The notes beneath the pieces are model-generated. The model ran no database searches and was not told where the DNA came from. It worked only from the letters and a program-made list of their open reading frames with translations. Positions 33,446-36,569 of a DNA stretch of 64,000 nucleotides are shown here, piece after piece. Origin of the DNA: Achromobacter spanius (lineage in GTDB: Bacteria; Pseudomonadota; Gammaproteobacteria; Burkholderiales; Burkholderiaceae_B); NCBI RefSeq assembly GCF_002812705.1, contig NZ_CP025030.1, positions 2,666,001 through 2,730,000 of the forward strand. The letters run 5' to 3'. The first letter of the stretch is position 1; each line of letters opens with the position of its first letter. The position numbers and the translations under genes are program-made.

Positions 33446-33540
33446 CAAGGCGGGTGATGGGGCGGGTGATGGGGCGGGGGTGATGGGGCGGGGGATGATG
33501 AGGCGGGGGTGATGGGGTGGGGGATGATGAGGCGGGGAAT
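33446..33540. repeat. G-rich minisatellite with G-quadruplex potential
   Basis: Directly after the receptor stop, units such as GGGCGGGTGATG, GGGCGGGGGTGATG and GAGGCGGGGGTGATG repeat about eight times. Many runs of three to five G separated by 1-4 nt satisfy the usual G4 pattern on the + strand. It could impede polymerase or act in termination. Confidence 0.65.
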
Positions 33541-33604
33541 GATGGGTTCCGCGCGTTCGGCGGAATCTCCTTGCCAACGCCAACCCGCGCTGCACCCATC
33601 CTAC
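33541..33604. repeat. GTAGGATGGGT-type hairpin element, copy A
   Basis: The 64-bp element runs from GATGGGTTCCGCGCG to GCACCCATCCTAC and reads GTAGGATGGGTG...AACCCATC on the minus strand. It is nearly identical to copy C at 34551. GATGGGT and ACCCATC are inverted termini. Elements of this style occur widely between genes in proteobacteria. Confidence 0.7.
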
Positions 33605-33624
33605 ATTCGGCAACGCGCCGGCAC

Positions 33625-34440
33625 GATCGTTCCGACGCGTAACGGCACGATCGTTCCGACGCGTAACGGCACGATCGTTCCGACGCGTAACGGCACGATC
33701 GTTCCTACGTGTGCCGACGCGATCATTTGGCCATGTGTTGACACGATCATTGCGTCGTATGCCGGCACGATAATTTGGCCGCATGCCGACGCGATGATTC
33801 CGCCACATGCCGACATGATCGTTCGGTCGTGTGTTGACGCGATCATTCGGTCGTGTGCCGGTACGATCATTCCGTCACGTGCCGGCACGATCGTTCGGTC
33901 GCATGCCGGCACGATCATTCCGCCGCGTGCCGACATGATCATTGCGTCGCATGCCGGCACGATCGTTCGGTCGCATGCCGACGCGATCATTCCGTCACGT
34001 GCCGGCACGATCATTCGGTCGCATGCCGACATGATCGTTCGGTCGTGTGTTGACGCGATCATTCCGTCGCATGCCGGCACGATAGTTCGGTCGCATGCCG
34101 ATGCGATCATTCCGTCGCACGCCGGCACAGTCGTTCGGCCGCATGCCGATGCGATCATTCCGTCGCATGCCGACGCGATCATTCGGTCGTGTGTTGACGC
34201 GATCATTCCGTCGCATGCCGGCACGATAGTTCGGTCGCATGCCGATGCGATCATTCCGTCGCACGCCGGCACAATCGTTCGGCCGCATGCCGACGCGATC
34301 ATTCGGTCGCATGCCGGTACGATCATTCGGTTGCGTGCCGATGCGATCATTCCGTCGCATGCCGGCACGATAGTTCGGTCGCATGCCGATGCGATCATTC
34401 CGTCGCATGCCGGCACGATCATTTCGGCGCATACCGGCAC
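33625..34440. repeat. Array of 34 tandem 24-bp units with a GATC at fixed phase
   Basis: Thirty-four head-to-tail units start at 33625 and keep a strict 24-bp period. The commonest unit is GATCATTCCGTC followed by GCATGCCGGCAC. Twenty-seven units begin with GATC; the others have GATA, GATG or a one-base change. Variants differ mainly at ATT/GTT, CCG/CGG and the ending GGCAC/GACGC/GATGC. Units 18-23, 24-29 and 30 onward repeat as a 144-bp higher-order block (for example 34057, 34201 and 34345 start identical units). Both strands have long ORFs through it only because 24 is a multiple of three. Confidence 0.9.
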
Positions 34441-34444
34441 GATC

Positions 34445-34508
34445 GTAGGATGGGTGTAGCGCGAGATTGTTCGAAGAAGAAAGAAATCGCACAACGCGCA
34501 AACCCATC
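34445..34508. repeat. GTAGGATGGGT-type hairpin element, copy B
   Basis: It starts GTAGGATGGGTGTAGCGCGA and ends CGCGCAAACCCATC, in the opposite orientation to copies A and C, with a diverged interior. It begins within the last, truncated 24-bp unit (GATC at 34441), which suggests insertion of one sequence next to the other. Confidence 0.65.
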
Positions 34509-34550
34509 AAGCAACGTTTAATTCCCAACCGGATCGGCCACAACGCGCGT

Positions 34551-34614
34551 GATGGGTTCCGCGCGATCGGCGCTATCTTCTTGCCGACGCCAACCCGCGC
34601 TGCACCCATCCTAC
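34551..34614. repeat. GTAGGATGGGT-type hairpin element, copy C
   Basis: It runs from GATGGGTTCCGCGCG to GCACCCATCCTAC and matches copy A closely over 64 bp, including CGCCAACCCGCGCTGC. Confidence 0.7.
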
Positions 34615-34745
34615 ACTCCGCCACGCGCCGCACGTCGGCACGATCATTCCGCCACGCGCCGCACGTCGGCACGATCATTCCGCCACGCGCCGCACGTCGG
34701 CACGATCATTCCGCCGCGTGCCAACACGATCATTCCGCCACGCCC
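34615..34745. repeat. Related 31-bp tandem array
   Basis: GATC positions at 34642, 34673 and 34704 are 31 bp apart and the next at 34728 is 24 bp on. The 31-bp unit looks like the 24-bp unit with an extra CGCACGT-like 7 bp. It shares CACGATCATTCCGCC with the main array. Confidence 0.75.
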
Positions 34746-34810
34746 TCGGGACGCGTTCCGCCCGCGCCCGGATTTCCCCGCCTTGAAAACGATTCAAAGA
34801 TATTTATAAT

Positions 34811-34864: not shown

Positions 34865-35374
34865 ATGCCATCCTCATCCTTCGCTCCTCATGCCGAGGTG
34901 CAATCCGTCTATCAGGCTCACCACCAGTGGTTGCGCGGCGTGCTGCAGCGCAAGCTGGGCAATGCGTCCGATGCGGCCGATGTGGCGCACGACACCTTTG
35001 AACGGCTGATCCGAGCCAATGTGCGGGAACCGCTGGGCGAACCGCGCGCCTACTTGCGTACCATCGCCACGCGCCTGTTGATCGGGCGCGCCCGGCGCGC
35101 GGCGATCGAGGCGGCCTACATGGAATCGCTGGCCTTGCAGCCGGTGGCGGTGGAGCCGTCGGTGGAATCGCGCGCCTTGATCCTGGAAGCGCTGGAGCAA
35201 ATCTGCGAACTGCTGGACACGCTGCCCATGACCAGCCGCCGCATCTTCCTGATGGCGCAGTTGGAGGGTATGTCGTACGCCGACATCGGCCAGCAACTGG
35301 GCCTGACGGCCAACGCGGTGCAGAAGTCGCTGGCGCGCGCGTTGGTGCACTGCTACACGATGGTGTACGGGTGA
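34865..35374 (+). CDS. ECF sigma factor, FecI type (module 2)
   Basis: The 169-residue protein has a sigma-2 region (VYQAHHQWLRGVLQRKLGNASDAADVAHDTFERLI) and a sigma-4 region (LPMTSRRIFLMAQLEGMSYADIGQQLGLTANAVQKSLARAL) typical of the FecI group. ATG 34865 follows a leader with a Fur box. The FecR gene begins 8 bp after its stop. It is closer in sequence to the module 3 sigma than to the module 1 sigma (shared KLGN...DAAD.AHDTF.RLI). Confidence 0.9.
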   Translation: MPSSSFAPHAEVQSVYQAHHQWLRGVLQRKLGNASDAADVAHDTFERLIRANVREPLGEPRAYLRTIATRLLIGRARRAAIEAAYMESLALQPVAVEPSVESRALILEALEQICELLDTLPMTSRRIFLMAQLEGMSYADIGQQLGLTANAVQKSLARALVHCYTMVYG

Positions 35375-35381
35375 ACAAGCC

Positions 35382-36569
35382 GTGAACCAAAGCGCAAATC
35401 CAGGCGTAACTCCGGGTGCAAACCTGCGCGCAATCCCAGGCGCAACTCCACACGCAACTCCAAGCGCAACTCCAAGCACAACTCCAAGCGCAACTCCAAG
35501 CACAACTCCAAGCGCAACTCCACACGCAGCCCCACACTCAACCCCAGGATCCACGGACACCCTCAAGCTGCTGCGGCCGCATGCGCCCGAAGCTGGCCGT
35601 ATCGATCCCAGAATCGTGCGTCAGGCCGCTGACTGGTGGGCGCGGCTGCGCGAGGGCGCAAGCGATGACGACCGGCTGCGCTTTGAACACTGGCGGCAGG
35701 CTCAGCCCGCGCATGAGCTGGCCTGGCTGCGGCTGGTGGCCTTGACGCGCGACGTGGACCTGGGCGTGGCCGAAGCGGGCCACGACGTGGCTGCCCGCAC
35801 GCTGCGGCAGGCGCCGCTGATCCAGTCGCGCCGCAATGCAATGCGCTGGATGGTGTCGGCCGCGGCCTTAAGCTTGGGCGCGTGGGCGGTGGCTGAACGC
35901 GGCGCCATTGTTCGCCTGGCCGCCGACCTGCGTACCAGCACCGGCGAACGGCGCGCGCTGACCTTGCCGGACGGCACGCGGCTGGAACTGAATACCGCCA
36001 GCGCCGTGGACCTGCGCTACACCGCCAGCCAACGTGAAGTGGTGCTGCTGGAAGGCGAAATCCTGGTGACGACCGCGCAAGACCCGCAAGGCCGGCCGTT
36101 CACGGTGCGCACGCGCGGCGGCATCCTGACGCCGGTGGGCACGCGGTTTCTGGTGCGCGACCTGGATGACGGCCACGAAGGCAGAGCCGGTGTGCGGGTG
36201 GCGGTGCTGGAAGGCGCGGTGGATGTGCGCGGCCTGGACCCGGTCGATCCGCCCCGGCGCGTGCATGCAGGGGAACAGGCCGAGGTGTCGGCGGCGGGCG
36301 GCTTTGCGTTGCAGAAGCTGCAAGCGGCCACCTCCGCCTGGATCAACGGCATGTTGATTGCCAACGAGATGCCGCTGGCCGCTTTCCTGCAAGAACTGGC
36401 ACGCTATCGGCCCGGCCGGTTGAGCTGTTCGGACGAGGCTGGCGCATTGCGCGTGGTGGGCGCATTCCCCTTGGCCGACAGTGACAAGGTGCTGGCCATG
36501 CTGCAAGAGGTGCTGCCCGTGCGAGTGCGTCAATACACCCGCTATTGGGTCACGGTTGGGCTGGCCTGA
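35382..36569 (+). CDS. FecR-type anti-sigma with a repetitive N-terminus (module 2)
   Basis: The 395-residue protein has a Thr/Pro/Ala-rich N-terminal tail of about 50 residues made of ATPS-like units, encoded by a 12-bp tandem repeat. Then follow the sigma-binding domain (AADWWARLREGASDDDRLRFEHWRQAQPAHELAWLRL), a transmembrane helix (about 150-172) and the FecR domain (TSTGERRALTLPDGTRLELNTASAVDLRYT, TPVGTRFLVRD). It starts at GTG 35382. The repetitive tail is on the cytoplasmic side and is not typical of FecR proteins. Confidence 0.87.
   Translation: MNQSANPGVTPGANLRAIPGATPHATPSATPSTTPSATPSTTPSATPHAAPHSTPGSTDTLKLLRPHAPEAGRIDPRIVRQAADWWARLREGASDDDRLRFEHWRQAQPAHELAWLRLVALTRDVDLGVAEAGHDVAARTLRQAPLIQSRRNAMRWMVSAAALSLGAWAVAERGAIVRLAADLRTSTGERRALTLPDGTRLELNTASAVDLRYTASQREVVLLEGEILVTTAQDPQGRPFTVRTRGGILTPVGTRFLVRDLDDGHEGRAGVRVAVLEGAVDVRGLDPVDPPRRVHAGEQAEVSAAGGFALQKLQAATSAWINGMLIANEMPLAAFLQELARYRPGRLSCSDEAGALRVVGAFPLADSDKVLAMLQEVLPVRVRQYTRYWVTVGLA
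35441..35544. repeat. 12-bp tandem repeat inside the fecR 5' end (module 2)
   Basis: CAACTCCAAGCG / CAACTCCAAGCA units repeat about eight times in frame and encode alternating ATPS-type tetrapeptides. Copy-number change would alter tail length without a frameshift. Confidence 0.8.

Follow-up and report, generated by a model that had tools for sequence, protein, structure and literature searches.

A tandem array of 35 head-to-tail 24-bp units fills the whole 840 bp that separate two inverted palindromic elements in the genome of Achromobacter spanius. It most likely arose by multiplication of a linker within a cluster of dispersed, GTAG-tagged palindromic elements (REP/BIME-like) and most likely has no sequence-specific function; we give this reading a probability of roughly three in four. 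It is located in a 64,000-nt stretch of DNA, referred to here as the window, and was compared with the rest of its own 6.43-Mb genome (G000) and with the other genomes of a 268-genome set from the same family (designated by G-numbers). One genome per species was sampled, and the copy-number variation described here is between species only.

The array is bounded on both sides by REP-like palindromes. The left palindrome (33540..33604, minus strand), which resembles the right half of the REPIN-like element on the other side (92% match), points its CTAC tail toward the array. Its exact core, ACCCATCCTAC, is located at 33594-33604 and borders the array on the left. The right element (34445..34614, plus strand; 170 nt) comprises two inverted REP-like palindromes in a REPIN-like arrangement that runs from GTAG to CTAC. 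It opens with GTAGGATGGGT… at 34445, directly abutting the array, and as single-stranded DNA it is predicted to form one long hairpin of -47.7 kcal/mol (z -7.15; none of 200 shuffles was as good). The distance from the CTAC end at 33604 to the GTAG start at 34445 is 840 nt, exactly 35 x 24, which sets the natural boundaries of the candidate tail-to-tail linker array at 33605..34444. The locus has the layout …CCCATCCTAC (35 x 24) GTAGGATGGG…. Tandem Repeats Finder (TRF) called the array at 33617-34444 with periods of 24 and 48.

An earlier note on this DNA had described 34 units of 24 bp at 33625-34440 with no indel. This description is borne out, and the full array is one unit wider (35). GATC begins 27 of the 34 units, as claimed, whereas GCATGC, said to occur in most units, was counted in only 16 of 34. 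The identity at lag 24 across 33605-34444 is 0.752, whereas 500 dinucleotide shuffles average 0.265 and reach at most 0.312; such head-to-tail units well above chance are those of a minisatellite or VNTR. The units are contiguous and not split by unique spacers, as the repeats of a CRISPR array are, and an Rfam search of the window at gathering scores gave no RNA family match. The 144-bp higher-order period is also real. Units six apart share a mean identity of 0.812, compared with 0.759 ± 0.016 after shuffling of the unit order, a value reached in 1 of 2000 shuffles. Periods of 48 bp (reached in 12 of 2000) and 192 bp (24 of 2000) likewise exceed most unit-order shuffles. Block comparison places the 6-unit part at units 18-34 (34033..34440). 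Units 18-23 match units 24-29 at 23, 24, 24, 24, 22 and 20 of 24 positions, and units 24-28 match units 30-34 at 19, 24, 24, 23 and 16 positions. Because these unit-by-unit counts range from 16 to 24, the 6-unit blocks proposed from unit 18 onward are clear, yet they are imperfect copies.

The flanking elements have the features of GTAG REPs, being palindromic and hairpin-forming, ending in GTAG and occurring in high copy number. The region 34440-34616 has 124 matches in its own genome, counting partial and overlapping ones. Full-length copies measure about 169-184 nt, and the 10 full-length copies shown all run from GTAG to CTAC. The core GTAGGATGGGTG occurs exactly 307 times in the genome, compared with 0 occurrences of a backward-pattern control. 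At least one core was found in 41 of the 268 family genomes. The core count is patchy within Achromobacter, with 54-383 copies in 9 of 43 genomes and 0-7 in the other 34, and in the family genomes searched outside this genus the core appears at most twice per genome. Other tandem REP clusters in the A. spanius genome (for example, G000:C1:736434-737072 and 359475-360396) have regular periods near 105 and 227 bp, and one cluster has a period near 91 bp.

The linkers between the tails of these palindromes were compared with the array units. A total of 61 loci in the own genome (the window locus together with those giving the best matches to the element and the first matches to the core) contain 24 tail-to-tail linkers (CTAC to GTAG), the array counted. 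The commonest length is 23 nt (7 of 24, drawn from 5 clusters). Fourteen linkers measure 19-25 nt and the others 0 to 73 nt, apart from the array at 840; the 10 linkers outside 19-25 nt, the array included, count against a linker origin. Nine linkers were aligned with the array units, and one, the 20.2-kb linker, is clearly unit-like. Its alignment score is 15, compared with 2.2 ± 1.7 for a letter-shuffle null (reached in 0 of 500 shuffles), and with the terminal GATC held fixed none of 2000 shuffles reaches the score. Next to this linker lies the full-length copy that, within the genome, is most similar to the right element (84%). The linkers of loci L096 and L097 score 8 and 7 (reached in 0 and 2 of 500 shuffles, under a null in which the terminal GATC was free to move), and the other six do not rise above the null (37 to 500 of 500 shuffles reach them). 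Since only the 20.2-kb linker is clearly unit-like, the similar length of the remaining linkers may be a coincidence.

Among 98 distinct contexts in the examined loci, 10 have GATC immediately ahead of GTAG, the array's own included; the combination is a minority but occurs at other copies and is therefore not peculiar to the array. Further arrays were sought in the own genome with a shorter unit pattern, and no excess was observed beyond the array locus, where 22 of 24 matches sit. The exact boundaries of the 840 bp, the REP family, the 23-nt linkers and the likeness of the 20.2-kb linker together make an amplified REP-REP linker the most likely identity of the array. The statement in the earlier note that no spacers, transposase or credible gene explain the repeats misses this likely explanation, in which the array itself would be the spacer between REP-like palindromes.

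A family-wide search with the array as query, in which the two best candidate places per genome were scored, matched 5 of 268 genomes. Two of these matches (G093 and G257) are weak (E about 5e-4), and their loci contain no 24-bp array. In the remaining three, all Achromobacter, array units adjoin the same sigma-factor gene and differ in number between the species, with 35 in G000, about 22 in G036 and 2 in G038, which answers the comparison of unit numbers that had been proposed. In G036, a 30-nt piece and 21 units occupy the same place next to a receptor gene that is 98% identical. In G038, a 32-nt piece and one 24-mer lie between REPIN-like elements inside a 226-bp composite repeat upstream of the sigma-factor gene. 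The sigma-factor gene is 94-95% identical in G036 and G038 and at most 88% identical at the other loci where it was found; the best receptor match in G038 is only 54% identical. Because homologous repeats adjoin the same sigma-factor gene in G036 and G038, an assembly artefact, which had been raised as a possibility, appears unlikely.

The receptor gene was followed through 24 loci (74-100% identical), of which 22 are additional to G000 and G036 (74-93%); its best named relative is that of A. kerstersii (93%). Up to 1500 nt downstream of the receptor, these 22 loci contain neither a REP core (with at most 1 mismatch) nor a 24-bp array. Their best local lag-24 identity is 0.51, compared with 0.82 and 0.74 in G000 and G036. 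The same sigma-factor gene follows the receptor in 9 of the 22; the rest are weaker empty counterparts, since the gene was not found within these loci. A two-unit pattern scan of named genomes gave no match, which says little because near relatives may be left out of that set, and plasmid comparison of the sigma/FecR region (34900-36500) also gave no match. Two further observations concern other loci. In L066 (G036:C1:1396800-1400500), an apparent insertion sequence, judged by eye, breaks a REPIN-like element in the counterpart of the 20.2-kb cluster. In L261 of G093, from another genus of the family, 29-bp repeats are nested in a 229-bp composite repeat (2347-2912), possibly a parallel case of spacer expansion.

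The G000 and G036 arrays have no exact unit in common (27 and 19 distinct units). Mean unit identity is 0.728 between the two species and 0.755 (G000) and 0.744 (G036) within them. G000 has a higher-order period of 144 bp and G036 one of 240 bp, each reached in 1 of 2000 shuffles. These species-own periods fit slippage or unequal exchange, and the growth mechanism suggested earlier is supported by unit numbers that differ among three species and by periods that differ between two species with no exact unit shared. Differing numbers and periods are the pattern that independent block duplication would leave.

The divergence between units, about 25%, is higher than the 3-9% observed for the flanks and elements (the REP elements, receptor end and sigma-factor gene of G000 and G036 are 91-97% identical). 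It exceeds the expectation for a young amplification and counts against the linker-amplification reading. The same contrast is the argument for an older array that predates the insertion and arrived, already amplified and diverged, from an unsampled lineage. This scenario is quite unlikely, as beside the same gene G038 shows only two pieces, and the 268 family genomes, with the two best candidate places scored in each, yielded no comparable array. The ratio of transitions to transversions in the G000 units is 79:3 in columns 12-24 and 25:29 in columns 1-11, and in the G036 units 40:7 and 28:7, respectively; the flanks and element give 145:96. No functional inference was drawn from this bias because the unit copies are not independent.

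The regularly spaced GATC sites had been proposed as a possible target for a methylase, a nucleoid protein or an unknown factor that binds there. Among 4-mer windows of the G000 units, GATC is kept best (0.79, compared with 0.76 for GCCG), and its density, 28 in the 840 nt of the array, is high next to 4.0 per kb elsewhere in the window. In the sister array of G036, however, it is kept in 12 of 21 units and ranks only fourth (tied), and the array is absent from the receptor loci of 22 relatives. The Dam family (TIGR00571) has no match in the own genome, with a control search positive in 4 of 14 known genomes. We consider a functional phased GATC cluster very unlikely; the proposal is not supported by these results or by the occurrence of GATC-GTAG elsewhere, and Dam methylation as such is rejected on the missing TIGR00571 match and the ordinary keeping of GATC in the sister array.

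Long open frames cross the array on both strands (316 aa on the plus strand and 297 aa on the minus strand), which could point to a repetitive protein with 8-residue repeats. The plus frame has no stop within the array of G000 or G036; the minus frame is open throughout in G000 and is interrupted by a single stop in G036. A 24-bp unit leaves any stop-free frame open, however, and the frames are long because the unit is stop-free. The third codon position is the least variable in both frames (25 changes versus 54 and 57 in G000; 21 versus 36 and 25 in G036), which is the reverse of purifying selection. No homologue of the minus-frame product was found at E <= 0.001 among 7999 scored candidates. 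A coding role is extremely unlikely, and the coding repeat was rejected on the third-position test and the lack of a homologue for the minus-frame product.

The neighbouring genes confirm that the array is positioned between two iron-signalling-type gene sets. To its left lie genes for FecR and a TonB-dependent receptor; to its right come those for a sigma-70 family protein, a second FecR and another TonB-dependent receptor. The sigma factor may be of the ECF type, with the Pfam ECF model scoring below its cut-off, and its promoter may be Fur-controlled. A promoter-like site upstream of the sigma-factor gene (34783..34810, plus strand), outside the array, matches the consensus at 11 of 12 positions in a scan (1 found, 0.4 expected in shuffles). 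Between the right element and this site, TRF detected a second, shorter array of the linker type (34615..34739), with 3.4 copies of a 31-bp unit followed by 2.2 copies of a 24-bp unit. It matches the main array at E 6.5e-14, and one copy of the 31-mer type was recognised by eye in G036. On the left, G-rich repeats of 12-15 bp (33449..33546; TRF) extend from the receptor stop codon to the left REP and appear shorter in G036 by eye. Separately, 12-bp repeats occupy 35428-35546, within the portion of the second FecR gene (35382-36569) that encodes the N-terminus; this stretch is much shorter in G036, and in G038 it is longer than in G036, and it may be a coding length-variable region.

This arrangement raises the alternative that the array works in cis, either as a spacer of variable length or as a barrier to transcription that shields the sigma-factor promoter from the receptor gene upstream. 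The array does follow the receptor stop codon and precede the promoter-like site at 34783, its length differs among three species, and roles in transcription termination and mRNA stabilisation have been hypothesised for REPs elsewhere (PMC3733652, in the portion of the text available). The single-strand fold of the array is better than its 20 shuffles (z -4.56); this value is taken as an effect of palindromes within the unit and could hint at structure. Yet no terminator-like site was found on the plus strand, the one on the minus strand is within chance (1 found, 1.3 expected), and the same receptor and sigma genes adjoin without the array in 9 relatives. Such a cis role is unlikely.

For the preferred reading, in which the array is a multiplied REP linker, the following course is proposed. 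A REP-linker-REPIN cassette would have arrived upstream of the sigma-factor gene in the ancestor of three Achromobacter species, as presence and absence of the array suggest. The linker of approximately 24 bp would then have been duplicated and have grown via replication slippage and unequal exchange, to which the unit numbers and blocks point. Slippage is probably promoted by the strong hairpins that flank the linker, and repeated block duplication would yield the 144-bp period. The regular GATC would be part of the linker sequence, adjoining GTAG, and the array may at most alter how far the receptor gene stands from the next promoter. Judged from sequence comparison, the array is most likely a lineage-specific minisatellite born from a REP linker, with most likely no sequence-specific function, and its phased GATC would need no methylase or binding-factor explanation.

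The array would thus be a bacterial minisatellite with a traceable origin, represented by the one-unit linker at 20.2 kb, the two pieces in G038, the roughly 22 units in G036 and the 35 in G000. These visible stages make hairpin-driven repeat expansion a testable question, and the array may serve as a typing marker for Achromobacter. A broader and more tentative idea is that bacterial minisatellites are born in tail-to-tail linkers flanked by large REP hairpins. The hairpins would provoke slippage, the linker would outpace the surrounding DNA in expansion and divergence, and each species could acquire its own array length ahead of an iron-signalling promoter, which this length may tune; this is conceivable, with the odds against it.

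The candidate mobilising enzyme for such REPs is the Y1 transposase (PF01797) of RAYTs. The own genome has 0 matches to this family, so that no REPIN/RAYT pair was found there. A Y1 match is present in 10 of 43 genus genomes, in 6 of the 9 core-rich genomes compared with 4 of the 34 others (Fisher p 0.002, not corrected for kinship). From 18 listed Y1 matches, 8 loci were examined; none of them has the REP core (with at most 1 mismatch) in its flanks, and 5 of these 8 loci belong to core-rich genomes. The enrichment would speak for a RAYT link, and the flanks without the REP would speak against it; mobilisation by a RAYT is not supported, as the own genome is negative and the 8 examined Y1 loci lack this REP.

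Bacterial minisatellites and VNTR loci consist of head-to-tail units with higher-order blocks and variable copy number. The present array differs in that its origin appears traceable to a REP linker, and its variation is described between species only. The main text of PMC12306157 does not mention Achromobacter. No paper was found on the array or, unless BRE is the same family, on this REP family, in sources available in part, which is no proof of absence; amplification of a linker alone to 35 units is not described in the available portions of PMC3733652 and PMC3116915. The betaproteobacterial repeat element (BRE) of Bordetella, a GC-rich tandem repeat of about 90 bp in variable number (PMC3110155, available in part), resembles the cluster with a period near 91 bp; the two are compared by description only, and GTAGGATGGGTG does not exceed two copies in any family genome searched outside Achromobacter. 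The REPINs of Pseudomonas (PMC3116915, in the part available) are similar in that two inverted REPs form one dispersed hairpin and occur in tandem clusters with their flanks. In contrast, no Y1 transposase match accompanies the present elements, and their copies measure about 169-184 nt, compared with doublets spaced 71 and 110 bp. The available text of PMC3733652 describes GTAG REPs, palindromes of 20-40 bp that form head-head and tail-tail dimers, most of which have spacers measuring 20 to 100 bp. The elements described here share with these REPs and their BIME clusters the GTAG end, the dimers, the many dispersed copies and the large tandem clusters that include flanking DNA (PMC3733652), and they differ in their longer palindromes, about 65-70 nt, and in a spacer that alone appears to have been amplified 35-fold.
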